A stretch of DNA of 20,623 bases, from positions 1 to 20,623 of the IMG/VR virus record IMGVR_UViG_3300035698_015138. One strand, given 5' to 3'. Positions 2,396 to 18,776 of this stretch are shown in pieces (position 1 is the stretch's first letter; each line of letters begins with the position of its first letter). Source of the DNA: a virus. The notes under the pieces are model-generated. The model was not told the DNA's origin, searched no databases, and saw only the letters and a program-made list of their open reading frames with translations. The position numbers and the translations under genes were made by a program.

Positions 2396-2638
2396 ATGAA
2401 AAAACTGACCTTTATTGAAAACTCAAACTTTTTTGCACGGATTGAAGATAGAAGCGGTAAGCTTTGGATGGTTTGGGGCAACCCTAATCAAAATACCTTT
2501 AGTGAGGCTCGAGTGAGTGGGCCCAAGGCAATAATTCTAAGGGACTTTATGGCCGAAGTGTTAAGTGCAACTATGCAGAGCCCAAAGGAAGATTGTTATC
2601 AGTATGAGGAGGAAGATAGTTTAAAGGTTCTTCACTAG
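2396..2638 (+). CDS. unknown 80-residue protein of the phosphoesterase/acetyltransferase cassette
   Basis: A small soluble protein that starts two bases after the acetyltransferase stop, with AAGG directly before the ATG. The N-terminal half looks beta-rich (FARIEDRSGKLWMVWG), then a helix (about residues 45-60), then a short acidic tail with EEEED. I recognise no family. Its last 68 bases overlap the end of the minus-strand DNA-binding protein gene, a tail-to-tail arrangement without room for a terminator between them. Being third in the cassette, it may be a partner or substrate adaptor of one of the enzymes, but that is only context. Confidence 0.7.
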   Translation: MKKLTFIENSNFFARIEDRSGKLWMVWGNPNQNTFSEARVSGPKAIILRDFMAEVLSATMQSPKEDCYQYEEEDSLKVLH

Positions 2639-2828
2639 GCTCAATGGAGTCAATAAAACCTTTGTTTTCCTCTAAAAACTCATTAACTAAAAGCCTTAGA
2701 ATATTAGCAACAGTCACGCCTTTATTTGTAGCAACCATGTTCATAATAAAGTGAGTTTTTTCTGGCACAGGACAGGCGATTGTTTTTGAAGAACCATTTT
2801 CAATTTTCTTTAAGTCATCAACTTTCAT
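2571..2828 (-). CDS. probable ribbon-helix-helix DNA-binding protein
   Basis: An 85-residue protein. Residues about 18-54 fit the ribbon-helix-helix pattern: a short strand (TIACPVPE), a helix (KTHFIMNMVATNKG), a turn with TVAN, and a second helix (ILRLLVNEFLEEN). The C-terminus is acidic and proline-rich. Members bind DNA as dimers through the N-terminal strand and act as repressors or plasmid/phage regulators (Arc, CopG, ParD types). The gene points away from the structural operon, so the 2829-2918 region serves both. That region carries several ATTAAT repeats that could be its operator. Function by motif resemblance only; an antitoxin is a less likely alternative, as no toxin gene is adjacent. 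Confidence 0.68.
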   Translation of the reverse strand: MKVDDLKKIENGSSKTIACPVPEKTHFIMNMVATNKGVTVANILRLLVNEFLEENKGFIDSIEPSEEPLNYLPPHTDNNLPLGSA

Positions 2829-2918
2829 GACTCTATAAAACCACGGCGAGATAATAGATCAAGGGAATATTAATTTAATAAAACATTAATCATATATTAA
2901 TCTTTAGGTTTAAGGCTC
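2829..2918. promoter_or_regulatory. divergent control region between RHH gene and terminase operon
   Basis: The region is strongly AT-rich. ATTAAT occurs three times (2869-2874, 2885-2890, 2896-2901). ATAATA at 2851-2856 could be a leftward -10 (TATTAT) for the minus-strand gene. The right half is the first copy of the 31-base element described separately. It is the only place from which transcription of the packaging and capsid genes could start close to terS. Confidence 0.5.
2875..2905 (+). promoter_or_regulatory. 31-base shared upstream element, copy 1 (before terS)
   Basis: The element reads TTAATAAAACATTAA (15 exact bases), six variable bases, ATTAA, one base, CTTT. It matches 25 of 31 positions of copy 2 at 4963-4993. 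The two ATTAA cores start 11 bases apart (2885 and 2896), one helical turn. It ends 13 bases before the terS start. A phage-specific promoter or a regulator-binding site are both possible. Confidence 0.55.
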
Positions 2919-3356
2919 ATGGTCTATTTTAAAGAGATGGGACGAATTACTAAATACAAAAAAGAATACTGTCAGAAATTAATTGATCATATGGAAGAAG
3001 GCCTAAGCCTCGAATCCTTTGCTGGAGTTGTTGGCATTTGCCGCCAGACTCTTTATTCTTGGTTTGAGGCGAACGAAGAGTTTGCTGAGGCCAAAGGTAT
3101 TGGCACCTCGAAATCATTTTTGTGGTGGGATAAAGCAGGAATTGCCGGGCTTAATTCGCGCTCTATTCGCAATGCCGATGGGAGCTCCGAAAGTATTTCG
3201 ATCAACTCAACCATGTGGACCTTTAACATGAAAAATCGCTTTGGTTGGCGTGACAAGCAGCCCGATGAACACGACACAATTGTGAACAACTACCAAGACC
3301 TCAGCGAAGAAGAAATTGATGCCCGAATCGCTGAGCACATGAAAAAGAATGGATGA
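2919..3356 (+). CDS. terS: terminase small subunit
   Basis: A 145-residue DNA-recognition subunit of the packaging motor. The N-terminal domain holds a helix-turn-helix (about residues 29-50, SLESFAGVVGICRQTLYSWF). A central helical part follows, with TSKSFLWWDKAGIAGL and MWTFNMKNRFGWRDK (residues 99-113), a signature shared by many small terminases. The acidic C-terminal tail probably contacts TerL. It acts as a ring that selects phage DNA and stimulates TerL ATPase. The position just before terL supports the call. I kept the ATG at 2919 (TAAGG three bases upstream); an ATG at 2937 (MGRITKYKKEY) is a possible alternative with a poor site. Confidence 0.88.
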   Translation: MVYFKEMGRITKYKKEYCQKLIDHMEEGLSLESFAGVVGICRQTLYSWFEANEEFAEAKGIGTSKSFLWWDKAGIAGLNSRSIRNADGSSESISINSTMWTFNMKNRFGWRDKQPDEHDTIVNNYQDLSEEEIDARIAEHMKKNG

Positions 3357-3498
3357 CACTGACTATGAAAGACTCTCAAAGCGAGCCAAACATTATTTCA
3401 TTAAAAGAGGCGGCGGAGAAGAAGAGGGCGAAGAATGGCTTTACGATTCCAAAAATCCTCGACGAGAGATCTTAAAAATAATTAGAGATCGAGGATAG
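3349..3498 (+). CDS. small 49-residue protein between terS and terL
   Basis: The ATG lies eight bases inside the terS end, and the stop comes three bases before the terL GTG, so it fills the gap exactly. The product is highly charged: a basic helix (YERLSKRAKHYFIKRG), a run of Gly and Glu (residues 21-29), then WLYDSKNP and a basic helix ending IIRDRG. No family is recognised. The GAGGA in its last codons is the terL ribosome-binding site. A competing 40-residue frame (3353-3475) starts four bases later but has a less ordered composition and leaves a gap. Confidence rests on fit and coupling only. Confidence 0.55.
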   Translation: MDDTDYERLSKRAKHYFIKRGGGEEEGEEWLYDSKNPRREILKIIRDRG

Positions 3499-3501
3499 CC
3501 G

Positions 3502-4959
3502 GTGAGTTTAGATAACAAGCTCGAAGTTTTAAAGCTTTTGGAAGAAAAAGAGCGGCGCAAGAAAACTCAACGCCTCTTTTCTTATTACCCGGACAAGGGG
3601 CCGTTAAGGCGAGAACTTTACAAAAAGCATATCTCATTCTTTGCGGCAGGCCCTAATCACAGAGAGCGGTTAATGCTCGCAGCCAACAGGGTCGGGAAAA
3701 CGGAAGGGGTTGGCGGTTACGAAATGACCCTACATCTCACTGGTCTTTATCCCGACTGGTGGGAGGGCACGAGGTTCGATCGACCTATTGATGCATGGGC
3801 CGCAGGTGATACGAACACAACCGTTAGAGATATTATCCAGCACAAGCTACTAGGGCCGTATCACTCGATTGGAACAGGCTTAATACCTCAAGATTTAATC
3901 TTAAAGAAAACCACAAAGCAAGGTGTTGGTGAGGCCTTTGAGACGGTCTATGTTAAGCACGCAAGCGGTGGTGTGAGTAAGATTTCTTTTAAGTCTTATG
4001 ATCAAAAGCGAAAGTCATTTCAGGGAACAAAGGTCGATGTGATTTGGCTTGATGAAGAACCACCACAAGACATTTATACTGAGTGCTTGCTTAGAACAAT
4101 GAACACTGATGGGGAAGAGGCAACACAAAGGCTTATGCTCCTAACCTTTACGCCGTTAAAGGGTTTAAGTGACGTTGTTTTGTCTTTCTTGCCTGGCGGT
4201 AAATTAAAAGAAAAATCAGAGAGTGCAAAGTTTGTTGTCATGGCCACATGGGATGATGCTCCTCACTTATCTAAAAAAGAAAAAGACGAGCTGTGGGCCG
4301 CGATGCCACCGCACCAAAGGGATGCAAGATCAAAAGGTATTCCACAACTTGGGAGTGGCGCTATTTATCCCGTACCTGAAACAGACCTTGTGGTTGATGA
4401 CTTCCCAATCCCCGATCATTTTATAAAGTGTTACGCCCTTGATGTTGGTTGGAACAAAACCGCCGCTCTTTGGGGGGCCTTAGATAGGGAGAGTGATATT
4501 CTTTATCTTTATAGTGAACACTATATGGGTCAAGCTGAGCCGGTGATACACGCTCAAAGTATTAGGGCTCGAGGGGAGTGGGTTCCAGGCGTTATAGATC
4601 CGGCGGCAAGAGGCAGGGGCCAGAGAGATGGTTCGCAACTTATGCAAGATTACGTAGACCTTGGCCTTGATCTAGAAACAGCCTTTAACGGCGTTGAGTC
4701 TGGTATTTATGAAGTGTGGCAGCGAATGTCGAGTGGAAGACTTAAGATTTTTAAAAGCTTAAACAACACTTTGGGTGAGTTTAGAATTTACCGACGCGAT
4801 GAAAAAGGCAAGATTGTAAAAGACAAAGATCACATAATGGACGCCTTGAGATACCTTGTAATGTCGGGAATAGAGCGAGCTAAAACAAAGCCCGTTAAGC
4901 GAGTCGAGGAGCAATACACTTATGACGCCTCCTCCTCTGGTAACAATTGGATGGGCTAA
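3502..4959 (+). CDS. terL: terminase large subunit (packaging ATPase/nuclease)
   Basis: A 485-residue motor protein that translocates DNA into the prohead and cuts it. The N-terminal ATPase has Walker A at about 60-68 (AANRVGKTE) and Walker B at about 178-186 (VDVIWLDEE, with the catalytic Glu following the Asp). LLTFTP at about 213-218 fits the coupling motif. The C-terminal RNase H-like nuclease shows its acidic residues in ALDVGW (D314), VIDPAA (D366) and HIMDALRY (D447). Length is normal for the P22 gp2-like class. It starts at GTG with GAGGA seven bases upstream. It follows terS and the 49-residue gene and precedes the portal, its docking partner. Confidence 0.95.
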   Translation: MSLDNKLEVLKLLEEKERRKKTQRLFSYYPDKGPLRRELYKKHISFFAAGPNHRERLMLAANRVGKTEGVGGYEMTLHLTGLYPDWWEGTRFDRPIDAWAAGDTNTTVRDIIQHKLLGPYHSIGTGLIPQDLILKKTTKQGVGEAFETVYVKHASGGVSKISFKSYDQKRKSFQGTKVDVIWLDEEPPQDIYTECLLRTMNTDGEEATQRLMLLTFTPLKGLSDVVLSFLPGGKLKEKSESAKFVVMATWDDAPHLSKKEKDELWAAMPPHQRDARSKGIPQLGSGAIYPVPETDLVVDDFPIPDHFIKCYALDVGWNKTAALWGALDRESDILYLYSEHYMGQAEPVIHAQSIRARGEWVPGVIDPAARGRGQRDGSQLMQDYVDLGLDLETAFNGVESGIYEVWQRMSSGRLKIFKSLNNTLGEFRIYRRDEKGKIVKDKDHIMDALRYLVMSGIERAKTKPVKRVEEQYTYDASSSGNNWMG

Positions 4960-4962
4960 TAA

Positions 4963-4993
4963 TTAATAAAACATTAACTTTTCATTAAACTTT
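4963..4993 (+). promoter_or_regulatory. 31-base shared upstream element, copy 2 (before portal gene)
   Basis: This is the second copy of the element before terS. It has the same 15-base block TTAATAAAACATTAA at 4963-4977, then ATTAA at 4984-4988 and CTTT at 4990-4993, with the same internal spacing. It sits in a 65-base gap inside an otherwise tightly packed operon, four bases after the terL stop, and ends 31 bases before the portal GTG. Confidence 0.55.
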
Positions 4994-17198: not shown

Positions 17199-18776
17199 AT
17201 GGCTGAATTAGCACCACTAGCGAGATATAGATTTTTCGACGACAACGGCGAGCCTTTGTCTGGCGGCCTTCTTTATACATATGATGCGGGCACGACAACC
17301 CCAAGGGCGACATTTAAAGATGTTGCTGGCGTAGAGCCAAATACAAATCCGGTTGTTTTAGATTCGGCGGGAAGGGCTCAGGTAAGAATTGTTAGTGGTT
17401 CTTACAAGTTTGTTTTGAAAACCTCAAGTGATGTAACAATATGGACTGAAGATAATGTGCAAAGTTTAGCGGGCCTTATTAACGCCACCGGGGCGCTAGC
17501 TATTGCAAACAACTTAGATGATCTTGCAGACCTTTCAATAGCACTTGTTAACCTTGAATTAGAAAATGTTGATAATGTTGCAGACACTGGTAAGCCGGTA
17601 AGTACCGCGCAACAAACAGCACTTGATCTAAAGGCAAACATCGCGAGCCCGACATTTACGGGCACGGTTTCGGGCATTACAAAATCAATGGTTGGCCTTG
17701 GGAGTGTAGACAACACATCAGACAGCGCCAAGCCAGTGAGTGTGGCCCAGCAAAGCGCTCTAAACCTTAAGGCAAACATCGCAAGTCCAACATTTACCGG
17801 GACTGTTGGTGGCATAACTAAAAGTATGGTTGGCCTCGGGAGCGCCAACAACACTAGTGATGTTGATAAACCAGTTAGTACGGCTCAACAAGCGGCACTT
17901 GATCTAAAGGCGAATATAGCTAACCCCGTTTTAAATGGCAGCGTTAGTGGCACTGGCGTTTTGGATGAAGACACAATGAGTAGCAACAGCGCAACTAAGC
18001 TTGCAACACAACAAAGTATTAAAGCTTATGTAGACAGTGTGGCGGGCTCAAGTTTATCGGTCACAACAAAGACGGCTGACTATACTGCCACAACTGGTGA
18101 CGACATTATCCTAGTTGATGCTTCATCAAATGACGTAACAATTACTTTGCCAACATCTTCAGGTAATGCTGGAAAAGTATTTACAATAAAAAGAATTGAT
18201 GATGTCTCCGGCGGTTATGACGTTGTTGTTGATGGCAACTCAGCCGAAACTATTGACGGTAAATCAACTTTCCCTCTTACCGGCGAAAATGAATCTGTAG
18301 ACATTGTGCTTGATGGGAGCAATGTAGTTATAAGGTCTATGAAGCTAAATACTCTTTTTGAAGCGGCGCTAGGCTCTGATAACACCGAAAATTTTACAGA
18401 TAGCAGTTACACCGATTCGGGCCTAACAATTGCTCTACCAGCAAACACTATTTGGGAAATTGGGTTTCAGGCCGCAATGACAACTAGGATTTCCGGTAGT
18501 GCAACTGACGTTGGTACATCAGCAACGGTGCAAATCAGAACTGCGGCAAATGCTGTTGTGACAAGATGCGGGGCGACTCAGTTAATACCCTTAGATGCAT
18601 CTTCAACATCATCAGCTACCAGCTTAAGAGCAGAGCTTAAAGAATTAAATGTCACTGCCGACACAACTTACAAGCTTTCATGGTTCAAGCTTGGAAACGC
18701 TGGAGTTGTTGCTGCTCAACTGAGGGCTAATGCTGCGTCTAATCCGACTTATATGTGGGCGAAAAGAATTAAATAA
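17199..18776 (+). CDS. tail fibre with the same anchor and phage-fibre repeats
   Basis: A 525-residue fibre. Residues 1-90 repeat the anchor domain of the preceding protein (RFFDDNGEPLSGGLLYTYDAG). Residues 124-249 hold two full and one partial 46-residue repeats (DNTSD-KPVSTAQQAALDLKANIASPTFTGTV type), the classical phage tail-fibre repeat. It is followed by SSNSATKLATQQSIKAYVDS (about 261-280), a common joint in trimeric fibres, a beta domain with DDIILVDASSNDVTITLP (about 301-318), and a C-terminal beta-rich domain (about 385-525) probably binding the receptor. It lies two bases after the previous stop. No separate tail-fibre assembly chaperone is seen after it. Confidence 0.88.
   Translation: MAELAPLARYRFFDDNGEPLSGGLLYTYDAGTTTPRATFKDVAGVEPNTNPVVLDSAGRAQVRIVSGSYKFVLKTSSDVTIWTEDNVQSLAGLINATGALAIANNLDDLADLSIALVNLELENVDNVADTGKPVSTAQQTALDLKANIASPTFTGTVSGITKSMVGLGSVDNTSDSAKPVSVAQQSALNLKANIASPTFTGTVGGITKSMVGLGSANNTSDVDKPVSTAQQAALDLKANIANPVLNGSVSGTGVLDEDTMSSNSATKLATQQSIKAYVDSVAGSSLSVTTKTADYTATTGDDIILVDASSNDVTITLPTSSGNAGKVFTIKRIDDVSGGYDVVVDGNSAETIDGKSTFPLTGENESVDIVLDGSNVVIRSMKLNTLFEAALGSDNTENFTDSSYTDSGLTIALPANTIWEIGFQAAMTTRISGSATDVGTSATVQIRTAANAVVTRCGATQLIPLDASSTSSATSLRAELKELNVTADTTYKLSWFKLGNAGVVAAQLRANAASNPTYMWAKRIK
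17568..17945 (+). repeat. 138-base in-frame fibre repeats (2 full, 1 partial)
   Basis: Units lie at about 17568-17705, 17706-17843 and 17844-17945. Each full unit encodes 46 residues containing KPVS-AQQ-AL-LKANIA-P and GITKSMVGLGS. At DNA level the copies share blocks but differ at many third positions, so the repeats are old rather than freshly duplicated. They form the elongated stalk of the fibre trimer. Confidence 0.85.

Follow-up and report, generated by a model that had tools for sequence, protein, structure and literature searches.

Paired tandem-operator arrays beside a divergent RHH-type gene suggest a late-gene control system in uncultured P22-like podoviruses

Introduction

The P22 Arc and CopG-type repressors are small ribbon-helix-helix (RHH) proteins whose operator lies beside their own gene and is built of near-palindromic half-sites about one helical turn apart (11 bp in Arc), an arrangement that recurs, with a predicted RHH protein, at the locus described here. 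Sites upstream of promoters with a poor or missing -35 element are known from Mu C, P2 Ogr, P4 Delta and phi29 p4 and from the class II activators of the PhoB/OmpR type, all of which have folds other than RHH; the direct repeats of the PhoB type recur every 11 bp and replace the -35 element.

Within the RHH family, RelB uses 12-bp half-sites (PMC2812701). RHH dimers bind multiple operator sites cooperatively, and the archaeal-virus proteins SvtR, AvtR and F55 are RHH regulators of their own gene, F55 using tandem repeats; SvtR also regulates a structural gene and is thought to repress a tail-fibre gene (PMC5569661). That the RHH fold is able to activate transcription is known from AmrZ and NikR (PMC3325190). 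The open-licence papers that we searched describe no RHH late activator of a phage.

Results

Two matching arrays in one phage

The window, by which we mean the whole 20,623-base stretch of viral DNA that was analysed, the entire record of this virus, carries two putative operator arrays, one before the gene for the small terminase subunit (terS) and one before the portal gene. The features concerned are the following.

2571-2828, minus strand: gene of an 85-aa RHH-type protein, the proposed regulator, divergent from terS
2874-2901, plus strand: operator array 1, boxes TTTAAT (2874-2879), ATTAAT (2885-2890) and ATTAAT (2896-2901), centres 11 bp apart, PWM score 25.3
2902-2905, plus strand: CTTT, copy 1, immediately 3' of the third box, at -35 to -32 relative to the start codon
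2925-2930, plus strand: -10-like box TATTTT, at -12 to -7 relative to ATG 2937
2937-3356, plus strand: terS, start moved from 2919 by comparison with the relative L008 (MGRPTAYKAKFC)
3502-4959, plus strand: terL, large terminase subunit, in the first operon
4962-4989, plus strand: operator array 2, boxes ATTAAT (4962-4967), ATTAAC (4973-4978) and ATTAAA (4984-4989), centres 11 bp apart, PWM score 23.9
4990-4993, plus strand: CTTT, copy 2, immediately 3' of the third box, at -35 to -32 relative to the start codon
5013-5018, plus strand: -10-like box TAAACT, at -12 to -7 relative to GTG 5025; an identical TAAACT is found in the relative L083
5025-7112, plus strand: portal gene, first in the capsid operon, predicted leaderless, start GTG 5025

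An earlier note on this DNA had reported that positions 2875-2905 and 4963-4993 agree at 25 of 31 positions, including an exact block of 15 bases (TTAATAAAACATTAA), and that the shared element stands in front of terS and, again, in front of the portal gene. A recount reproduced the match, and the placement was confirmed. The note had also described paired ATTAA cores 11 bases apart; here the spacing stood and the number did not, as each copy contains three TTAA cores, and hence three boxes rather than two, with an exact 11-bp period (2875/2886/2897 and 4963/4974/4985). The hexamers around these cores are near-palindromes of the ATTAAT type. We place the putative terS start at ATG 2937 rather than at 2919, as suggested by the L008 homologue and by the promoter geometry described below.

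The 31-base match is far above chance, and we take the element to be a real regulatory site. Both intergenic gaps are 72-78% AT. In 400 dinucleotide shuffles of both gaps, the best 31-base match reached 22 positions and the longest common word 11 bases, as against the 25 and 15 observed. With both strands of the record searched, the 15-mer TTAATAAAACATTAA occurs just twice, and all its other matches carry three mismatches; at up to three mismatches there are 9 matches against 2.0 ± 1.5 expected. The best non-array match in a position-weight scan of the window scores 12.8, at 1177, and was considered as a third array; given the scores of 25.3 and 23.9 for the two arrays, it is taken as chance. 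Elsewhere in the window, a tail-fibre-like gene (17199-18776) contains three copies of a 138-nt repeat, at 17581-17952.

The architecture is kept in relatives and the word is not

Portal, terL and major capsid queries returned close to 190 viral contigs, mostly distant; the relatives used here are uncultured contigs of unknown host. The exact element pattern has no match in 2.9 million viral contigs (IMG/VR) and is absent from the relatives checked; the strict pattern TTAA-N7-TTAA-N7-TTAA is likewise absent from nine relatives, so the array word itself is private. The expectation that the element would recur at the same places in relatives therefore fails for the exact sequence and holds for the architecture: 11 environmental podoviruses, the window included, carry arrays of 11-bp period at both corresponding places, and in the closer relatives the terL-portal gap carries a different tandem word with the period unchanged. 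Words in the portal gap include the following.

L007: TTATAA
L008: GTAAAC and TTAAAC
L009: GTAAAC-like
L013: CTATAG
L021: TTAAAG
L083: ATATAG

L013, with its CTATAG boxes, is GC-rich (36% AT overall). In L003, L021 and L083 some boxes are flipped, as judged by eye, with centres still exactly 11 bp apart; such flipping without a shift in phase is compatible with the binding of one two-fold symmetric dimer per box. The longest array seen, also by eye, is in the portal gap of L238 (8360-8464), with up to five boxes in a row at steps of about 11 bp. L083 is a mosaic, with a terL 86% identical and a portal 60% identical to those of the window and with its different operator word at the junction.

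Period and word matching were assessed with a joint test in which three hexamers per gap, in free orientation, are scored over both gaps together (maximum 36). Orientation-aware hexamers were used in place of direct repeats alone and of 7-base words, both of which had overlooked flipped boxes. With 10 phages the mean joint score was 31.8 at period 11 and 27.4-28.1 at other periods, and within-phage pairing exceeded swapped pairing (p = 5e-5). With 11 phages (the window, L005, L007, L008, L009, L010, L013, L021, L155, L158 and L238) the score was again 31.8 at period 11, while the other periods tried (8-10 and 12-15) gave 27.4-28.3 and shuffles 27.1 ± 0.3 (z = 15.7); within-phage pairing gave 350 and swapped pairing 332, and none of 50,000 permutations reached the observed value. 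We note that L238 was found after the idea had been formed, and that its RHH gene and both arrays are present. In L005 and L155 a period other than 11 scores one point higher, and some boxes are weak in L007, L155 and L158. The array word thus varies across phages and agrees between the two places within each phage, and from these comparisons the regulator and its sites appear to evolve together.

Position-weight scans were run on the records of seven phages. Since the matrices were made from the arrays themselves, the rank of the arrays is partly built in, and the informative results are the gap to the next match and any extra sites. The two arrays rank at the top or within the top three in all seven, and at the top in the window, L008, L010, L013 and L155, by a small margin in L155. 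The window has two arrays only. In L009 a third array lies 24 nt before a long tail-fibre-like gene; in L021 a third adjoins the RHH gene and precedes several small genes of the minus strand that resemble lysis genes by eye, without a family match; and L010 has a weaker candidate array behind the major capsid gene.

Among relatives whose portal gene overlaps or abuts terL (L011, L014-L016, L018 and L255), no clear array was found at the portal gene. Only L011 and L255 were also inspected further upstream for an RHH gene, and these two, which lack a terL-portal gap, show neither RHH gene nor array. L020, L109, L111 and L112 have no 11-bp array before the portal gene. A palindrome of the TTGTAA-N3-TTACAA type precedes the portal gene in these four contigs (3663-3756 in L020), perhaps the site of a different regulator. 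In the genome_contigs collection the terL query found no relative and the portal profile found relatives at 35-56% best-segment identity, three of which (L109, L110 and L112) were examined and have no such array. The phage contigs L109 and L112 are filed in a Bathyarchaeota genome bin; their gene content resembles that of bacterial podoviruses, and the assignment is probably mis-binning. Some relatives carry, as read by eye, intein-like or endonuclease-like insertions in terL or portal genes (L012 1805-4276, L004 768-2706, L005 1478-3377, L158 4569-7710), and L009 has a repetitive reading frame rich in glycine-aspartate at 519-893.

A candidate regulator of the RHH type

In the AlphaFold2 model of the 2571-2828 product, a strand (residues 14-18) is followed by two helices (23-36 and 40-54), the predicted order of the RHH fold, with a pLDDT of 82-89 in the core block. 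Its best 50 structure matches are nearly all RHH proteins, with a modest best Z of 5.2, and a profile of the RHH proteins of the window and its relatives (alignment A3) matches ORF56, an RHH protein, at E 2.5e-4. Matches to curated families stayed below threshold: the window protein matches ParG at E 0.21, below the cut-off, and the L017 protein scores 20.4 bits against Pfam RHH_1, whose cut-off is 20.5. No sequence relative of the 2571-2828 product was found in IMG/VR or in named phages, and none of the L238 RHH protein in named phages; a further RHH alignment (A1) was too divergent for scanning.

In L005, L007, L008, L009, L010, L013, L021, L155, L158 and the window, a minus-strand gene encoding about 64-85 aa points away from terS or from whichever other gene comes first, in many cases a ParB-like one. 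A second group of RHH proteins (alignment A4) comprises those of L008, L009, L010, L013, L021, L028, L158 and L238. Its model has two confident helices and no assigned strand, and structure matches are weak, which leaves the putative RHH fold of this group resting on sequence alignment and helix prediction; the two groups align in register with a probability of 74% (E 2.9e-5). Most A4 members carry an acidic N-terminal motif, SIDxxxENFD, in the first ~20 residues and before the RHH core, a candidate for a polymerase contact.

Predicted core promoters and their spacing

A TAnnnT box starting at -12 or -13 precedes 19 of the 27 genes that follow arrays and 3 of 102 control genes from the same phages, and it ends 7-8 nt before the start codon. 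Reading it as a sigma-70-type box is an assumption, the host being unknown. Several start codons of the first operon were chosen with homologue alignment or spacing in mind; portal genes alone, taken by an unbiased first-start rule, have the box in 10 of 15 cases. Shine-Dalgarno-like motifs are found at 1 of the 27 genes and at 53 of the 102 controls. A -10-like box some 7-12 nt ahead of the start codon and a nearly complete lack of Shine-Dalgarno motifs give these genes the sequence features of leaderless genes. Matches to a -35 element before them are no better than in shuffles, and a promoter with its own sigma-70-type -35 was rejected on this ground.

Counted partly by hand, the last box mostly lies 24-26 nt from the start codon. 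This spacing is 35 nt in L083, in L017 and at both genes of the window if terS starts at 2937; L083 (99-1613) shares with the window this spacing, the TAAACT box and the CTTT. The difference between the classes, ~10-11 nt, is one helical turn. L155 does not fit either class cleanly. An array at a constrained distance upstream of a -10, without a -35, is what is expected of an activator-dependent phage late promoter.

Discussion

We propose that the RHH protein encoded at 2571-2828 reads the arrays as the operator of a small regulon, replaces the -35 element and activates leaderless terS and portal promoters, a reading that we hold to be probable though well short of established. At each array, the one before terS and the one before the portal gene, three dimers of the protein would bind the three hexamers, one dimer to each helical turn. 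Once bound, they would substitute for the -35 element and recruit host RNA polymerase, and the packaging and capsid genes would be transcribed as leaderless mRNAs. The RHH gene may itself be regulated by binding in the gap between the divergent genes; early expression of this gene, with autoregulation through the divergent array, is plausible and untested. In the absence of binding or transcription data, binding to the arrays, activation by that binding, leaderless mRNAs and late expression are all inferred. The earlier note had proposed a phage-encoded late promoter or operator bound by tandem regulator dimers and had named the 2571-2828 product. The comparative data lend this support, through the observed 11-bp arrays in relatives, the within-phage word match, the adjacent divergent RHH-type gene in all 11 phages and the -10-like box at a fixed distance; no binding has been measured, late timing remains an inference, and the choice between activation and repression is unsettled.

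The RHH protein could instead bind the arrays as a repressor that keeps the terS and portal promoters off early and is later removed or titrated, in the manner of SvtR. We think this unlikely but by no means negligible: most characterised RHH proteins repress (PMC3325190), SvtR binds its own promoter plus that of a structural gene (PMC5569661), and the stretch immediately before the -10 is taken up by the arrays, so that a protein bound there could obstruct polymerase. A repressor, however, would not need an operator-to-minus-10 spacing fixed to ~1 nt or lengthened by one helical turn, and under repression the promoter would be expected to retain a -35 of its own, of which there is none above chance. 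The -10-like boxes of the late genes, moreover, match TATAAT at 3.6 of 6 positions against 4.5 of 6 at the RHH genes, as expected for activator-dependent promoters; some RHH genes, not that of the window, have a near-consensus -10 (TATACT in L008, TATAGT in L013 and L021, TATAAT in L010). Activation from the -35 position is favoured, not shown: array and -10 keep a constrained phase, the -35 is missing, the -10 is weaker than that of the RHH genes and a leader is predicted to be absent.

It is improbable, in our judgement, that the arrays are read by some other protein, whether from the host or another regulator or a sigma factor of the phage, with the RHH gene a mere neighbour. Direct binding evidence is absent, and L012, L017, L004 and L028 have their RHH gene on the opposite strand, ahead of terS or terL. 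Against this, word and RHH gene change in step among phages of like kind, the RHH-type gene is divergent from the first array in 11 of 11 phages, neither is seen in L011 and L255, and triple near-palindromes one turn apart suit tandem RHH dimers. A chance likeness of AT-rich gaps, or a recent functionless duplication, can practically be discounted, for all the AT content of both gaps, in view of the shuffle tests, the uniqueness of the element in the window and the recurrence of the architecture, under different words, in ten relatives, GC-rich L013 among them.

Extending the activator reading to the podovirus family, we lean only slightly towards the view that these phages switch on packaging, capsid and sometimes tail or lysis operons by an RHH activator whose tandem operators replace the -35 of leaderless promoters, and that regulator and word change together, giving each phage a private late-gene code comparable to immunity specificity. 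Uncultured P22-like podoviruses would thereby gain a readable gene-control system, with structural-gene promoters that can be located from sequence alone. The mosaic L083 makes the evolution of such private codes testable, and about a dozen regulator/word pairs offer natural material for studying how RHH proteins select their DNA sites.

Among named phages, the closest relative by TerL (59.7%) is EBPR podovirus 1 (JF412294), compared here alongside P22-like portal/terminase modules; a 6-nt gap precedes its portal gene, and there is no array. Unlike the operators of Arc and CopG, the arrays here are triple, lie at two or three structural-gene promoters and occupy the place of the -35 at a constrained distance to a predicted leaderless start, and the protein falls below the Pfam RHH cut-offs. 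SvtR, AvtR and F55 differ in acting at archaeal promoters and in being described mostly as repressors, and at gp30 some 80 nt separate the SvtR site from the promoter elements, unlike the arrays. AmrZ and NikR are cellular rather than phage-encoded, and AmrZ acts at algD from 282 bp upstream, with no fixed -35 position. The system looks like a variant of the phage late-activator theme not previously described in the papers searched and, if the proposal is true, an RHH activator at the -35 of leaderless phage promoters would widen the role of a fold known mainly for repression.
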